Assembly (NCBI GenBank): GCA_003665825.1
Contig: QPFY01000008.1
Location: 930,001 to 994,000, forward strand
Origin: Microbotryum silenes-acaulis
Lineage: Eukaryota > Basidiomycota > Microbotryomycetes > Microbotryales > Microbotryaceae
DNA: 64,000 bases
Direction of reading: 5' to 3'
This document shows, in pieces, positions 15,720 to 24,749 of the stretch. Each line of letters opens with the position of its first letter. Position 1 is the first letter of the stretch. The translations under genes were made by a program, and so were the position numbers. Below the pieces are notes generated by a model, which was not told where the DNA came from, searched no databases, and was given only the letters and a program-made list of their open reading frames with translations.

Positions 15720-16633
15720 GAGTTGTTGTTGCTGCTGCTGCTTTTGTTGTTGCTGTTGTTGCTGCTGTGCGAACTGCTGCGCGAGATGCTGTTGCTGAGG
15801 CTGTGGCATTTGCTGGTAGATACTTTGTTGTGGCTGCTGTTGGTGTTGCTGCTGTTGTTGTTGTGCTGTGAGCAAATTTTCAACCAAAGGTACAGTCAGC
15901 TTTTCGGTATCTCACTCGTGCTAGCCCCGGGATCGGGTTGTAGGAACAGGGGACCCACGGTTTGATGGCCTATTTGCGGCGATCACAGCTTTGAGCAGCC
16001 CCATATGCTCGGGGGAGAGTCGGTCGCCGCGGGCCATGTTGACGAGTTGGGCGAGGAGAGGGGACTGCTGACCGCTGGGTGGATAGAGCACGCTTTGCAG
16101 ATGTTGGATCGCGGCCTGCATGTTGCCTTGCAAGTGAAGTGGATACAAGTGCGCGACTGAAGGAGACAAATTGAACCAGCCACCGAACCAGCATCAGTCT
16201 CATCATCGAGGCCAACATGTAGCGCAACCCAGTGGCGCAGAGAGCGAGACGAACTGAGAGTGGCTTCGACATTCTGAGCTTGCTGTTGATGCTGCTGCTG
16301 CTGGAACTGCTGCCCCTGCTGTTGCTGTTGCTGCTGCTGCTGCTGCTGAAGCAGCCGCTGTGCGTTGAGCATAGCTTGTTGCTGCTGCTGTAGATCCATC
16401 TGCTGGTGTTGCTGCTGTTGCTGCTGCTGCTGCTGCTGAGGCGGGGGTGCGCGCAGGGGAACGGTGATGCCATTCTGTACGAGGTAATCCTGCACGGCCT
16501 GCGAGGTCGGCTCCTGGCCCGTCGATTCGCGCGTGACACGGAGAAAGTCTTGGAGGTTCTGCAGCTGTTGCGGCGTGAGCGTGCTGGCCGGCAGTGCAGA
16601 GGCTCCGCTCCCGGGTCCCAAGCGAGGCGGCAT
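13763..16633 (-). CDS. TAF12: TFIID subunit TAF12 with long poly-Q tracts
   Basis: Histone-fold subunit of TFIID (and usually SAGA) that pairs with TAF4. The last exons encode the conserved fold: KRKIRELVESVDPKERLSDE, then LLLEIADEFIDSITRF, CQLAKHRKSDRLEVKDLALH and YNIKIPGF, diagnostic for TAF12. Model: 16633-16255, 16126-15959, 15865-15481, 15427-14098 and 14017-13763 (838 residues). The 16254-16127 intron has a poor donor (GTTCGT) and an ambiguous acceptor. The frame is open upstream of ATG 16633 to about 16753 without an ATG, so a further 5' exon is possible. Upstream of the fold are several glutamine tracts (up to about 11 pure Q), Ala/Pro/Ser-rich linkers and a conserved-looking helix (NMQAAIQHLQSVLYPP). 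Length exceeds human TAF12 several-fold, but large Q-rich TAF12 is normal in fungi. Confidence 0.88.
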
Positions 16634-17048
16634 CGTACACGCTGACCGCTGAACCGCGTCCTTGAAGGTGGGGGTCGAGCTTGGGGCTGGCGCTGGGGTT
16701 GATTGAGGTTGTACAGCGATGTTAAGCGTGCTCTGCGGCTGGGAAGACCACACCAGGGGAGGTACCTAGGGTGAGCAGGAGGCAATGCGGTCCGTCGAGC
16801 CAAGTCACACGCTGGAGCTTGCGACCTGGCCGCGCCGAGAAGGATGGCAGACACCCCGATGACAAGGCCATTACAATTCTCTGGTCGGTGGTCCCACAAG
16901 TAAAGGTCCTATCGTTCCTGCCTCAAGGGGGCTCACCTGATCTGACGGAAAGTTTACGGCACGGCACGGTCACGCGTGGACTGAGCCAGAAAGACCGCGA
17001 GTAGACCGCGAGTAGACCGCGAGTAGCTGAGTAGTAGCTGCGAGTCAA
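16634..17048. other. TAF12 upstream region with 11-bp tandem repeat
   Basis: Contains the possible 5' exon and promoter of TAF12. Three tandem copies of GACCGCGAGTA lie at about 16992-17025, followed by a degenerate GTAGCTGAGTAGTAGCTG stretch that abuts the left target duplication of the next element. Confidence 0.5.
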
Positions 17049-17056
17049 GCTAGTCA

Positions 17057-18214
17057 AGGACCCCCGAAAGCCCAGCCATAGGCGGCCCTCTAAAAACGGC
17101 CTTTTTCGAGGCAAAATGTTCAGAATTTTTCCCGGATTCTGACTGAAAATGTCCAAATATGAGGGCCGCCTAGTGTTGAATAATTTCTCAAAACTACTCT
17201 ACAAGCTGTACAATGCTCATAAATCTTTCTGCGCTACGCGTAGACTGCATTCCCGCCGCGCGCCGGCGGGAAAGGTTGCGCGCGCGCACCAAGCACCAAG
17301 AGCGCTGCCAGCACGACCGCCAACGAGCCTTTTTCCTGATGAAATGGACTCGAATAGGATCTCAGCTTTGTTTATTAACTTGGCCTTTGATGGATTTAAA
17401 TGACACTATAATCTACATCTACCTAAAAGAATGCACGACAAAATAAGGTTCACAGCCGCGCGCTATATCCTAATACCTAGAAATCTCTGGAAAAGTCGGA
17501 GGAGATGCAGTTGAGCACACTGGCTAGGCCAGTAGTGTAGGACTCATTGACCCTGAATCAGAATCAATCATGCCCACCAAATCCCCCTTGGGTGCTTTAC
17601 AGAGACACAAGGCGAGCCTTGGACTCCTGAATTGACGCCCGAAGCTCTCCGAGTGCCATTTCGGTGATCGGTTCCAAAGAATCCGACGAGAATCGGCGCC
17701 GGCGAACCCTGTGAATCTATCGACCGACTAGGAAAAGAAAGATATTTCTCGGCGAGAGAGCTTACAGATCGAAAGGAAGAAGAGGAGACGTAGCTCGACA
17801 AGTCGGCGTTCCGAGCGAGGGACGATCAAAAAAAAAACGATAAACGACTCCAATCGCAAATGTAAGGGGATGCCTTACAGGAACAGCCCCATAAGCAGCC
17901 TCTGAGTAGCTAGAACTATCAAGTTCTAGTTACGACTTGCTTTTAGCCTAGCGGTCAAGAACGACAGATTGTATTTTATGCACATCAGAGGCGCATACCG
18001 TACAGCAAATGCAGACACTAACGCGCTCCAAACGCAAACAGCGCGCCGCTGGGCCGGCTATGCCCTGCGCCTCCAGCCTCCCGCTACCCTGGTCTGCGCT
18101 TCAAAGTTCGACCGGAGGGAGGAAAATGTCCAAAAATGAGGTGAGCCTCGACCCATTTTGAGCCAAAAATGTCCAAATTTGCGGGCCGCCTCTGGCTGGG
18201 CTTTCGGGGGTCCT
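17057..18214. mobile_element. 1158-bp non-autonomous DNA transposon with 8-bp TSD
   Basis: Termini are inverted repeats: the left begins AGGACCCCCGAAAGCCCAGCC at 17057 and the right end is its reverse complement ending at 18214, with only a T/G difference in the first 30 bases. Inner subterminal copies of AAAATGTCCAAA and GGGCCGCC are shared. Both sides are flanked by the identical 8-mer GCTAGTCA (17049-17056 and 18215-18222), a target-site duplication of the size made by hAT transposases. There is no transposase frame inside; the interior holds a LINE tail (17471-17828) and a GC palindrome at about 17250-17272. It lies 154 bp upstream of the interrupted host frame at 18376. Confidence 0.85.
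17471..17828 (-). mobile_element. 5'-truncated LINE 3' end nested in the 1158-bp element
   Basis: On the minus strand this segment closely matches the end of the LINE at 46.9-52.2 kb. Shared blocks include CGATTCTCGTCGGAT, TTCAGGAGTCCAAGG, CAGGGTCAATGAGTCCT, CTCCGACTTTTCC and GATTTCTAGGTATTA, in the same order, covering the last about 50 codons of ORF2 and the 3' UTR. Similarity stops at GGTATTA in both copies, marking the common 3' end. An about 45-bp stretch absent from the full copy interrupts the match near 17705-17750. Orientation is opposite to the full-length copy. Confidence 0.85.
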
Positions 18215-18524
18215 GCTAGTCATGGGAAGCTAGCGCGCGCGGAGGTCACATACCCCCCGAAGATCGGTCAACTCAAGCTTTGATCCGAGTAGTCCGCGAA
18301 CCCCTCTTCCTCGAATGCAACCTCGTTTCGTTGACGTTGCTTTACTCCCTCCTATCACCTTATCCACCCGAAGTGATGGCTCCGGATCCTGAACCACTCC
18401 GAGCTACCCAAGGGTTCTCATAGGATCAGATCTGATCTGATCCTGATCCTAATTTTCAGGATCAGATCGATCCTGATCCTAGCTGGGCAGGATCAAGATA
18501 GGATAGATCATGCCTCGGAGAATG

Positions 18525-18600
<76 letters not shown>
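18525..18600. repeat. 76-nt pure poly(A) run
   Basis: An unbroken run of 76 A within the 5' untranslated part of the hAT element, after CGGAGAATG and before GAGGAAAGG. No duplication is apparent around it. True length is uncertain because such runs are prone to slippage in replication and sequencing. Confidence 0.9.
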
Positions 18601-18605
<5 letters not shown>

Positions 18606-18885
18606 AAGGGGGAGGCGATGTAGCGTCGTTACTTGGTAGATAGCCCTTTAACTGATACCTGCCGTTCACAAGAGCGCGCTAGGCAGGCTGACTTAGTCTG
18701 GAGAACGCGTGAGCAACGCGGGAGGCTGCCGGCTGCCGGGCGCTGTCTAGTGAGCTATCTTGACTCGTTGTGGCGCGTCTGGGTCTTCCTCACGCCATCT
18801 CATCTCGTCACAACACTGGCTCGCCCTGCTCTTCCTCACACGACCTGACAACCACCATCCCGGCTTTCACTCGAGCATCATCGTC

Positions 18886-21727
18886 ATGGCCGTCCGCCGA
18901 CCCCAAAACATTCCTTCCGCTGAGGATGACAACACTCCTACTCACTTCTCTGATGAGAAAGCCGAGTCTGCTTTCCTCAAGAAGCTCAGATACGGCAGCG
19001 CCAAGTTCCGTTGGCGCTCTCGAACTGCTGATGTCGCAAAGGCCTACCTGTTCAAGCGCAACGCGAACCTTTGGCAACATTACGACATCCACATTATCCG
19101 CAAGTTCAAGGCACCCGTCCGAGGCGAACCCGACGACGGCTTCGGCGGTAGCTTGTTCCTCCAGCCCATGTGCAAGACACGTCCGAACCAGCACGTGGTC
19201 GCCGGCGCGTACTACGAGGCTGTGACCAAGGATGGCATCAACAATTGTCTAAGGACGATGGCGAGATGCGCGGCACATTATACCGGGAAAACTGTAAGTT
19301 TGGATTTGAATGCGCCTCATGAAGTGCGATTCAAAGTGCGTCATCTGACCCGCAACCACCTCTCAGGTGCAACCATCGATCACCTCGTCCTTCTTCAACA
19401 AGATCCGCTTCGCCGCTTGCGTTGTCTTACATGTCGCAACATCCAAGGAGGCGTTCACACACTTCGATCGAGCACGCAACCCGTATTTGACGTTGGCTTT
19501 GGCGACCGCCAATGACCAGGCTTCTCTCAGTAGTAACGACACCGTGGCTCGTCATATGAAGGCCGTTCACGACGCGATGGCCGCGGAGTTTGGAGCGTTC
19601 CTCGTCAAGCGCAATCGCGGACTCCATCTGGTGCTCGATGGCTGGACTTCACCCAACTCGCTCAGCATACTCGGAGTCGTTGTCATCTACGCAGATGGAG
19701 GTGTCACACATCGCAGAGTCCTCAAATTCATCCACTGTACGTCTCGCCATACATCAGCAAAATGGGCACTCGGCGCGCACCGCTTAAAGGCGCTTAAGGA
19801 CGCTTAACAAGACGTCCTTAAGCCCCGCGTCTTGTTAAGCGTCCTTAAGCGTCCTTAAGCGGGGCTTAAACGCCTTTAAGCGGTGCGCGCCGAGTGCCCA
19901 TTTTGCTGATGTACCGGTCGAGACTTGGCCAGGATTTTGCACAAGTGCTGCGAGGACTACGGAATCTCTCATCTCATCCGATCGTTGGTGATGGATAATG
20001 CCTCAAACTGCAACACATTGGCGATTGAGTACAAAAAACTCAACACGGACTGGTACGGGCCCAAGATGCGTGTTCGATGCTTCGCCCACATCATCCAACT
20101 GGTCATGGCCGCGCTCTACTCACCTTTCAGCATGACGCCCATTCGAGTCGGTCAAGAAAAGAGGCCGAGTACCTCCTACGAGCCCCAAGCTTCTGCTACG
20201 CCAACTACAAGCGATCTCATTGCCGAGATTGAAGAAGACGACCCCTCCAACACCAACATCGCGCAGCTGGCGGAGCGTATGAACGAAGCACAAGATGCTG
20301 CTGATATCGCTCACCTCACCAGCGTCACTTCGGGCAACGAGGAATTATCTGCTCTTGTGATGGTCCAAGAGTCGACAAAGGGCGTCTTACGCCGGGCCTT
20401 TCAGTGGGCCGCGGTCGAAAGGATCAAAATTCCGGCGCGCGCACGAGGCGAAGCCGCCTCACTCATCCACGTCATTGCCGATTTTGCGCAACACGTCTCG
20501 GGATTCTTCGCTTCTGCGTTGAGTCAGCACAATTGGGCCACCGCTGTCAAAGCCCGCCCCGCTTTGAGCCGACCGTGTCAAACCGAGCTCACACGTCGGA
20601 ACGATACTCGCTGGAATTCAACCCACGAGTGCTTGACGACCTTTGTTGACTTCGAGGAAGCAGTCGAGCACTATCTCAGCAGCACTGGTACTAGTGGGCC
20701 AACCACCGACAAATACTCGCTTTCGCCAACACAATGGGCGGATGCGGCCGCGCTCGTGGCAGTCGGTGAACCGTTCAAGCAGCTCGCGGTGTCCGTTCAG
20801 GCCGGTGATCCCCAGGGCTGGAAAACCATTCGGAACTTCGAGAAGATGGAAGCCGACCTGTTTGCAATCACCATAGACCACAAGGCAGGAAGTCTTCTCA
20901 GAGTGGGTGCAAAAGCTGCTTTGTTTGTCAGTGGTAAATACTACGCCAAGGTTGGCGATGACGCGCTTCCGGCGTTTGGCTCGGTCTTCTTCCACCCGGG
21001 CCACCATCTCGAGTTCTTCCTCCGAAAAGGCACGGCCTGGGTCGAGGAAGATTGCGATGGTAAGTTGGAGGAACTGCACGAGATGTACCTGCAGGTGTAC
21101 GTGCCAGCGTACGGCTCCATCTATCCCGGATCTTCAGCACCTCAAGCCTTCGCGCCCGACGAGGAAATCTACGCGCAAAATTCCAGGTCTTTCGCGACAG
21201 CCGGTCTTGACCCTTTCCGGGTATACGCGAAGCAGGCTCGAATCTTCCATGATGATCTGGCTCAATATGGTCATAATCCGGTGATGTACTGGAAGGCCCA
21301 GCAAGGCATCCCGTCACAAGCGGCACTAGCGGAAATGGCGATCGACTTCTTGACGATCCCACCCACCGCTTGCGATGCGGAGCGAGCTTTCTCCGCGGGA
21401 CGCCGCACCATCAATCACTTGCAACATGCGACCTCACCGGAAACCCTGAACGTGAAGATGTGTCTCGGAAGCTGGGCCGACGCCAGAGATCCGCTTCATG
21501 GCTCAACGGAGGCCACAATCAGAAGGGCAACAGAAGTTCTACAGGGTATGTACCACTATCTGACATGACCTCTGTTACACAAATCTAAACTGACTATAAA
21601 ATCATGTTCGCATTTTGTAGATGTCATGCGAAACCCACCTACACCGGCGAGGGCAACGCGCGCGATCGGAGCTCATAGAAAAAGTAGTAGTGAGAATGAT
21701 GCGCTCAACACCGATAGCGACAACTAG
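18886..21727 (+). pseudogene. hAT transposase, broken by a nested foldback element
   Basis: Exons 18886-19293, 19367-21545 (interrupted at 19752-19913) and 21621-21727; without the insert they encode 843 residues in frame. Core hAT motifs are present: the first catalytic Asp in LVLDGWTSPNSL, the second in LVMDNASNCNTL, the RRNDTRWNSTHECL block, and the C-terminal dimerisation region (DFLTIPPTACDAERAFSAGR). The N-terminus (NANLWQHYDIHIIRKF, MCKTRPNQH) may be a degenerate BED finger. The 160-bp insert sits between FIHCTSRHT and GRDLARILHKCC, exactly in the conserved SHTGENLA-like motif. It adds 162 nt, so the frame is kept, but it introduces an in-frame TAA at 19805. The last intron (donor GTATGT, acceptor TTTGTAG) is phase-consistent; skipping it would end the protein at 21568. 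Confidence 0.88.
19752..19911. mobile_element. 160-bp foldback MITE inside the hAT transposase
   Basis: Almost the whole element is one inverted repeat: it starts CATCAGCAAAATGGGCACTC and ends with the reverse complement. The inner arms are built from GGCGCTTAAGGACGCTTAAC-like repeats around CAAGACGTCC. TA flanks both ends (19750-19751 and 19912-19913), consistent with a TA target duplication. Removing 160 bp plus one TA restores CAT ACC GGT across the junction and the conserved hAT motif. Confidence 0.9.
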
Positions 21728-22362
21728 TGAGGTGTAGTCATCTGTTGCCATATAAGGCAATTAAATGTCTCAGATCAAATTGATCCTTCTGGATAGGAAC
21801 AAGAAAGGATAGATCAACGCGGATTGGGAAAAAAAATAAATCGGATCTGATCCGATCCTCCGGTGATCTGATCCTATGAGAACCCTTGGAGCTACCGGCT
21901 CCACGTCTCTCGATGGCAACGGTCAAGACGCGAACTGGATCCGTCAACTCAGTCTCGAGTACTCAATCAACCTGCAAAAGACTCTGGACGAAGAGAAGGA
22001 GCCTGCCGAGCAGCAGTTGATGCAAGCCATCGGGCAATTAAGTTGGGTGTTCGGTGCCGACGAAAATCTGTCTCGGTTGCGAACGAGCGATCGCTGTACT
22101 GACTCGCGTATAGTCGATTGGCAACTGCTAGAAGCCGAGCGGAGTCGGTGAAGCCTGAAAGCTGACAGCAATTGTTAGAGCACCATAGATCTCGTTCTCT
22201 TTTAGAGTTCTGCTTGGCTCAGGAATGCAAACGCAAAGCTCGTTACACAACTTCGATGCCCTGGCAGCGGATGAGACGAGACTAGACAGACACCGTACCG
22301 CCGGAGAACAGCTTATATGGAAAGACGGAATGAACAACAATGTATTCGCAACAAAATGAATC

Positions 22363-24749
22363 CTAAACTGACAGTTGATAGAGCACGGATGTCTCCGGGT
22401 AAACACACTCACGGAACCGGGGAGTAAGAGCAAGAAGATTCGTCGCCGAGCACGAAAGATCCATGCCCTGACTGGCCAAGTCCGCCCACCCGGATAGCGC
22501 CCACCAATGCGCCCACACCGCAAAGACAATAGCGACTGTGCACCGATCCCGAAAAATATCGCTTTAGTGTCAAGGTCAAGTAAACTAAGTGCCATCCCTA
22601 CTCACCATGCCAGACCTGGTGACTCGCGAAAAAGATGTCCCAGCGCCCCGGTGCCGTGCATTCCGGAAACTGATAACCATAGAATGACAGTCCAACCAGA
22701 TAGGCGCTGACAGACAGCCCGACCGGCATAAGGTACTTGACCGTGTCGAACAAACCGTACAGAACCGCCATGTGCAAGACGGGCATGATTGCGCTGCCGC
22801 CCAATGACAAGAAGAACGCGATGCGTGCACTCTTGTACTCCCGTTCGTTGAACCATGCCTGCCAGGGAAAGACCATGCCCATGACACCAAGTGCCCCAGA
22901 AAAGACGATGTAGACCGTCGCGAGTTGAGGGCGGCAGTAGAAGCCGTAGTATTCGATTCCCATCACCGAAGCGGCGATGAGGCCCGAAATGCCAACGTAA
23001 TCGACGCACGCGGCGCCTCGGTGCCAATGATCCGTCGCACATCCGGCCATGAGATGCCAGGCCGTAGAGCACAGAAGGCACTTCATGGCGGCACCAACGA
23101 AAACGAGCGCGATTGCTGTGTCGGCCCAGTGCGAGTTCGGCAACCAATGAGGCGAGCCCGGCATGACGTAGACGAGCAGATAGACGAGTGAAAGGAAGCC
23201 AACGAAATGGGACTGAGAGTCCACCACTACGTCAGCAAACTGTTCCAAGCTGGGAACGAGCTCATGTGGCTTTCTCACATCAGTGACTCACTTGAATGTT
23301 GATGGTCTCATTGTGAATCTCAAAGGCGGATCGTAGCAAGACACCCCAGCGTTCGATCGGATAGAATCGATAGCCCGTGATGATGTGCTCGTTATTGCGC
23401 CACGGGAATGGCAGCTCTTCGTACCTCAGCAGACGCTCCTTGCCTCGTGACAATGCGGCATGGTAGAACTTGGCGGCCTCGTCGAGTGCAGCACTGCTCG
23501 ATGACGAGAGCAGCGCTGTCAGCTCGTTTGCGCCGTCCTGCAGATGCGCGACACCGGCCTGTAGGCTGTCCGAGGCCTCGTTGCGAAGGGTCCGTAGATT
23601 ATTCGACACTTTATCGAACGTTGCCGTGCCAGGTCGGTACCTCTGCAACGCTCCACCGAGACGGGTCGACTCCGCAGCAAAGTAGTCGCGCATCTCGGTC
23701 AGCACAACTGCAGGGGTCGATGGCAAGGTGGGCAGTGTGGGCATGAAGGACGACACCCGCTCGGTTGTTGAAATCGAGTTGAGCACGTGCTGCAGTGCGG
23801 CCAACTCGCTGGATACGCGTGAGAGCAAAGCTGAGGCAGAGTCTGACGCACGTTGTCGGCCATTGTCGAATCGGGCGCGGAAGTTGAGTCGGGGTAGCGA
23901 GGGGATCGGATGGTCTTCGAGGAAGTGGTCGAGTGCCTGTCGGGCCTCGGGTGAAAGTTGGAACTGCACAAGCGCGGGCGAAGTCGTGCCATCGACGTAG
24001 GTTGGAGAATTGAGCGTCGACAAGGAGGGCCACCCGCTGCGAACTGCGTTGAGAAATCGCGAGGCCTTGGTGATGAAAAGCTCGAGCGCGCTGATCTCTT
24101 GCTTGACCTGCTCCCATGTCGGCTGGCCCTTTGCCGCGAGTGCGGGGTCGACGGCAGCTCTCCGCCGCCGTGACCTGACAGCGTTCACAATGACGTCGCG
24201 CTCGGATTCGCTCAGCTCGGCCAGACACTCGATCTCGTCGTCGTAGGTCTCGAGCGCTTCGTTGTCGCGCTCGTTCTCCGTCTCGGTCTCGGTTTCGGGT
24301 TCTACGCAGCTGGAATCACCGCTGCGGCAGTCCTCTGATTCGCTTTCCGCGACATAGGCTTTGAGCAGCTGTATGTTGTGCTCGACCTGGTCGACTCGAC
24401 CGAGCACGTACTCGCGTAGAGTCCAGATGGAGCCGGACAAATCGAGCGAGGTGAGAAGGGCCGAGCCATAGTCGAGTGACGAGGCCGACGACGATGATGG
24501 TGGGCACATGGTGTGGTGCATCGACTTGGCCCTAGGTCGCAGGGTCGGGCGCTTGGATTGGTCTACGTCGGACAGTTCATCAACGGGAGGGTCGGCCGAG
24601 GTCGGTGATGAGGGGGGTGAGAGTGAGATCGCCGGCTGTGCGCGTGCACAGAACGGCGACGACAACGCCGGGCCCGAGGACGAAGCCGAAGTCGAAGGGC
24701 CCGAGGTTGAAACGCGGCTCGATCGACGCCGCCTCATTGTGCTGGACAT
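22363..24749 (-). CDS. IZH3: PAQR/ADIPOR membrane receptor, Izh3-like
   Basis: Seven-helix protein of the progestin/adipoQ receptor and hemolysin III superfamily; yeast Izh proteins affect zinc and sterol homeostasis. Exons 24749-23292, 23212-22606 and 22535-22363 give 745 residues, all in phase. The first about 450 residues are a soluble, Ser/Glu-rich extension with helical segments (acidic run ETETETENERDNEALE; RDYFAAESTRLGG-type helices), as in Izh3. The membrane part begins at ITGYRFYPIERWGVLL and EIHNETINIQ/SHFVGFL, the family E-x2-N-x3-H box split by intron 1. It includes the STAWHLMAGC segment (conserved S/H region) and GAACVDYVGISGLI, and ends with SHQVWHVAIVFAVWAHWWAL, carrying the C-terminal HxxxH-like histidines that bind metal. 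The C-terminal tail after the last helix is uncertain because a GTGAGT donor lies in it. Confidence 0.88.

Follow-up and report, generated by a model that had tools for sequence, protein, structure and literature searches.

A probable recent hAT insertion in a small, genus-restricted gene of Microbotryum silenes-acaulis

We analysed a window of 64,000 nucleotides from the fungus Microbotryum silenes-acaulis (the whole stretch, positions 930,001 to 994,000 of contig QPFY01000008.1, assembly GCA_003665825.1), in which a 3480-bp DNA transposon of the hAT superfamily separates two pieces of a small host reading frame. Our overall reading, in which we have good confidence, is that this is a recent, lineage-specific hAT insertion in a small gene restricted to Microbotryum, of which the middle part remains. 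A homologous protein of M. lychnidis-dioicae, MVLG_03225 (133 amino acids), runs continuously through the insertion junction, and the two frames therefore belong to one coding frame. An earlier interpretation of the window, made from the letters alone and called here the sequence-only reading, had proposed that a complete hAT element split a host gene. The features concerned, in window coordinates, are as follows.

18220-18408, plus strand: host frame before the insertion, 63 codons including the left duplication; homologous to residues 43-93 of MVLG_03225 and to BQ2448_6187 of M. intermedium
18376-18378, plus strand: ATG of the sequence-only reading, an internal methionine equivalent to residue 86 of MVLG_03225
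18401-18408, plus strand: left target-site duplication, GAGCTACC
18409-21888, plus strand: hAT element, 3480 bp, with matching terminal arms
21889-21896, plus strand: right target-site duplication, GAGCTACC
21897-22034, plus strand: conserved part of the host frame downstream of the insertion, up to ...EQQLMQAIG; homology and coding-like codon use
22035-22151, plus strand: rest of the frame proposed in the sequence-only reading, 38 codons and stop; scattered in-frame similarity, no coding signal

One host frame on both sides of the insertion

The target-site duplication GAGCTACC is present as exact 8-bp copies at 18401-18408 and 21889-21896, bracketing an element whose terminal inverted repeats are 25-nt arms with 100% complementarity (one base per arm is flank). 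Within the element, the open reading frame (ORF) 19910-21565 contains the Pfam domain Dimer_Tnp_hAT (PF05699; 31.3 bits against a curated cut-off of 21.4), and the proposal of an 8-bp duplication flanking a 3480-bp hAT element was thereby borne out. Also upheld was the proposal that the frames on the two sides are in phase once one duplication is removed: the ATG frame at 18376-18408 (11 codons) is continuous with 21897-22151, which comprises 84 codons and a stop. A homologue spanning the junction had been set beforehand as a test, and MVLG_03225 crosses it, with BQ2448_6187 matching on both sides. Before the junction, 45 of 51 residues are identical to MVLG_03225 (residues 43-93) and 39 of 62 to BQ2448_6187; after it, the corresponding figures are 33 of 38 and, with gaps, 40 of 73.

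These two proteins are the only homologues of the host protein found, both from Microbotryum, in searches that reached proteins having short exact words in common with the query. The search with the post-insertion piece scored 29 candidates out of 5.8 billion sequences, and its sole match at E ≤ 1 was MVLG_03225 (E = 5.7e-10); with MVLG_03225 as the query, one further homologue appeared at E ≤ 10, BQ2448_6187 (191 amino acids), which is 68% identical to it over 133 residues. Pfam gave no match for the host protein or its homologues, and sequence and profile searches of the PDB returned no useful match (one chain at E = 0.83). The predicted structure of BQ2448_6187, built from two sequences, had a mean predicted local distance difference test (pLDDT) score of 34. 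Genome searches found no second copy of the host gene. A literature search found no paper for either locus tag, and among the matches listed for Microbotryum together with hAT, miniature inverted-repeat transposable element (MITE), insertion or pseudogene, no title concerned the locus.

The limits of the gene differ from those first proposed. The sequence-only reading took the ATG at 18376 as the start and estimated a protein of about 95 residues, whereas the relatives' models have 133 and 191. We rejected 18376 as a start codon: the frame upstream of the insertion is open from 18220, homology extends well upstream of 18376, the start of MVLG_03225 lies 85 codons ahead of this methionine, and M. 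intermedium has no methionine there. At the other end, agreement with MVLG_03225 stops at its last residue (about 22010 in the window) and agreement with BQ2448_6187 at QAIG (22034). Beyond 22034, BQ2448_6187 has scattered similarity only, with a 14-residue gap, and its word SIGNC matches another frame of the window; the codon use of 22035-22147 carries no coding signal (P = 0.38). The last 38 of the 84 codons after the insertion are unsupported by either conservation or codon signal. A predicted intron at 22148-22205, followed by a second exon to 22359, had good splice signals by eye and was nevertheless rejected as unproved. This exon, which would end beside the 3' end of the neighbouring HlyIII gene on the opposite strand, had no support from the relatives' annotated C-termini, and its codon use was not coding-like.

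The hAT copy, its family and its age

Transposases of the hAT superfamily have RNase-H-like DDE catalytic residues. A genome search with the window's element returned at least 142 matching pieces, its own included, among them near-full copies and many short ones; the count is a lower bound, as 40 of 179 first-look candidates were scored. Both ends were present at 11 of 14 other loci examined, and 9 of these 11 had a perfect 8-bp duplication, which is a property of the hAT family here and not of the window copy alone. L049 and L054 have both ends without a perfect duplication, and at L047, L048 and L055 one end was found and the second was not. The short copies keep mainly the element ends; six of those with both ends span 621-717 bp, and a seventh, L049, spans 878 bp. 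L048 (C9:1133130-1136470) is itself rearranged: its transposase segments run in both orientations, and near its left end it carries the palindromic element that is also nested in the window copy.

Identity of the window copy is 98.9-99.1% to four near-full copies (L043-L046) and 97.4% to L047. Over 3210 ungapped columns aligned with L043-L046, 14 substitutions are private to the window copy (0.44%), an upper bound on change since its insertion. This high identity, together with the few private substitutions, indicates that the element is recent. The host frame differs from that of M. lychnidis-dioicae at 11 of 89 residues, corresponding to about 5.8% DNA change if neutral; because at most 0.44% private change has accumulated in the element, the insertion postdates the split from that species.

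The term "complete", which the sequence-only reading applied to the element, applies to its two ends and no further: in the window copy the transposase frame is split and 93 bp are gone:

18886-21727, plus strand (approximate limits, by eye): hAT transposase gene, spliced, split by a nested element, with a C-terminal hAT dimerisation domain
19752-19911, no strand assigned: 160-bp near-palindrome with a TA duplication, nested within the transposase frame
21683/21684, no strand assigned: site of the 93-bp gap (position alignment-dependent); the five other copies compared have the 93 bp

Relative to five near-full copies, the window copy has 162 extra bp at 19750, consisting of the 160-bp near-palindrome and its TA duplication; the nested element is in none of the five. 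It interrupts the intact transposase frame that autonomy would require. The longest frame of the window copy has 552 codons; four of the five other copies have longer ones (613-690), and L046 has a shorter one (509). The near-palindrome has more copies at other genome sites (L057-L061). The window copy also contains a run of about 75 A at 18525-18600, where the five other copies compared are 47-69 bases shorter; this may be a slippage or assembly feature.

The missing start and the order of events

MVLG_03225 and BQ2448_6187 both begin MLGNCNDPSLAYYYLPNI, and their first 18 residues are identical. The relatives' first 32-34 residues or so were not found in the window. Nor was their N-terminus found in the genome with a 42-residue query and two degenerate DNA patterns, although the 88-contig assembly may have gaps and an intron-split exon could escape such searches. 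The only match to the patterns, with one mismatch, had a counterpart in the control with reversed patterns. A query of equal length taken from the part that survives matched the genome at E = 2.3e-19, and the failure to find the N-terminus is therefore informative. The surviving pieces, by comparison with M. lychnidis-dioicae, contain no stop or frameshift, indicating that the gene died recently, by whatever means.

The surviving frame begins beside a second element:

17049-17056 and 18215-18222, no strand assigned: 8-bp duplication GCTAGTCA, left and right copies; the right copy ends 154 bp before the ATG at 18376
17057-18214, no strand assigned: inverted-repeat element of 1158 bp, probably non-autonomous

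The sequence-only reading correctly placed another transposon 154 bp upstream of the ATG. Its suggestion that this element had struck the promoter was not supported, as the element borders the conserved coding frame. At 13 loci examined in the upstream element's family (L029 and L062 are one copy), both ends were present in 8; of these, 4 including the window have a perfect 8-bp duplication, 2 match at 7 of 8 bases, L032 matches at 6 of 8, and L036 has no match. The same contig carries another copy at a distance of about 45 kb (C8:900424-901624; L029, L062), 99.6% identical over 1135 bases, which suggests a recent local hop. A short tandem repeat, GACCGCGAGTA, of roughly three units as judged by eye, lies just left of the upstream element at 16994-17026, in the region where one might expect the 5' exon of the relatives.

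Given the failure to find roughly the first 32-34 conserved residues, the hAT element may have hit an already truncated gene. The 5' exon would then have been lost first, and the insertion into the remnant would have had no effect of its own. We give this sequence of events appreciable weight, though less than an even chance. It agrees with the left flank, where residues 1-43 of MVLG_03225 left no trace in 16000-17056 (the best local score was 32, with shuffles giving a median of 30 and a 95% point of 38) and where 16640-17056 matches only itself in the genome. The lack of any stop or frameshift, however, leaves little time between the 5' loss and the hAT insertion.

That same lack of damage, with coding-like codon use, fits a gene that was intact until the hAT element inactivated it, its death and the insertion both being recent, with the 5' exon lost later or missing from the assembly. 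This we regard as tenable, if tentatively. Against it, no start was found in the genome searched, and the upstream insertion does not account for that: we rejected this element as the cause of the loss of the 5' exon, given its clean duplication GCTAGTCA. Of the knock-out of an undescribed gene first proposed, the lineage-specific insertion and the undescribed gene (no Pfam match, two Microbotryum homologues) stand, and the causal role of the hAT element is unproved.

Both orders of events presuppose a gene. It is conceivable that MVLG_03225 and BQ2448_6187 are models laid over conserved intergenic DNA and that the hAT element landed between genes. The homologues are only two, both gene predictions, and their locus tags have drawn no publication that we found. 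Two further results weigh on this side. The signal of conservative substitution is weak: 6 of 11 changes score positively against M. lychnidis-dioicae and 11 of 25 against M. intermedium, and among stop-free neutral simulations as many positive-scoring changes arose in 8% and 11%, respectively, and a summed score as high in 20% and 12%. The C-termini differ between the two relatives and from the window, as would fit a gene under loose constraint or one partly mis-modelled. Other limits apply to the preferred reading set out below: the empty site is known at the protein level only, and M. lychnidis-dioicae lacks one codon there (ETLATG versus EPLRATG). The codon test was trained on a single gene, the HlyIII neighbour, and its shuffles preserve base composition only; with that basis, 18220-18408 joined to 21897-22034 scored 14.3, a value reached by 0 of 2000 stop-free and 0 of 5000 plain shuffles. 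Against the intergenic interpretation stand this coding-like codon use across the conserved frame, the identity of the first 18 residues in proteins that are 68% identical overall, and a frame that holds over 133 residues from an identical start in two species. The M. lychnidis-dioicae gene set as a whole drew on RNA sequencing in its construction (PMC4469406). We consider the intergenic interpretation unlikely, and judge it highly probable that the MVLG_03225-type locus is a real gene, which in the relatives would presumably be expressed and useful.

The loss of the gene, comprising the 5' loss and two insertions within about 200 bp, might have been favoured or tolerated through the biology of the species, for example a change of host plant; we think this doubtful. 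That the locus still yields a product, through a transcript starting inside or after the hAT element, is highly improbable, since such a product, although the downstream frame is open through the element's right end (ORF 21867-22151), would retain 38 of the 133 residues of MVLG_03225 and lack the most conserved part.

Our preferred reading, the recent hAT insertion in a small Microbotryum gene, can be put as the following course of events. A gene orthologous to MVLG_03225 and BQ2448_6187, whose middle part the window would retain, was probably entered after the split from M. lychnidis-dioicae, when a hAT transposase would have moved the element into GAGCTACC by a presumed cut-and-paste mechanism, within the latter half of the conserved coding region, with duplication of 8 bp. 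The second element, also with an 8-bp duplication, lies at the left edge of the surviving frame. With roughly the first 32-34 conserved codons likewise not found in the genome, the host gene is most likely a pseudogene in this assembly, presumably with loss of function.

Neighbourhood and comparison with known systems

To the right of the host frame lies one further gene:

22400-24749, minus strand (approximate limits): HlyIII/adiponectin-receptor-like gene, the right-hand neighbour

The window ORF of this gene is 97% identical to its M. lychnidis-dioicae counterpart and 87% to that of M. intermedium, indicating that the window species is closer to the former. The M. intermedium orthologue, BQ2448_6186, is one locus number from BQ2448_6187, both on contigs with a length of 1203898. 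MVLG_03225 and the M. lychnidis-dioicae HlyIII protein are on contigs of equal size, 228092, an agreement in contig size and not a reading of gene order. A scan for transfer RNA genes gave nothing bearing on the locus. A mating-type chromosome as the reason for the nest of transposable elements was not supported: a pheromone receptor match fell on C6, and matches to homeodomain proteins fell on C10 as well as C6, with none on the window's contig, C8, although contigs need not equal whole chromosomes.

The case is well documented and ordinary in kind, being otherwise routine transposon biology. Its value lies in a fresh DNA-transposon insertion first recognised in the bare sequence and afterwards confirmed by a related species' protein that spans the empty site. 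A small gene that two or more Microbotryum species have and that is degraded in this one is a candidate test case of lineage-specific gene loss.

The known setting is the accumulation of transposable elements in Microbotryum genomes (PMC10502011, PMC4469406), although a term search found the word "hAT" in neither main text. In most Microbotryum genomes, elements with terminal inverted repeats are reported to account for an average of 0.42% of base pairs, whereas M. intermedium has none (PMC10502011). The window's element resembles Hermes (solved structures 6dww, 2bw3, 4d1q, 8edg) and the hAT superfamily in its 8-bp duplication, short terminal inverted repeats and C-terminal dimerisation domain. 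It differs from Hermes in its interrupted transposase frame and in sequence, ORF 19910-21565 giving a weak match to Hermes-type chains in the PDB (E 0.0056-0.014, no single stretch significant). The host locus, in turn, agrees with those of MVLG_03225 and BQ2448_6187 in its frame to either side of the insertion site and in its HlyIII neighbour, whereas the relatives' genes are uninterrupted, retain the conserved N-terminus and end in other C-termini.
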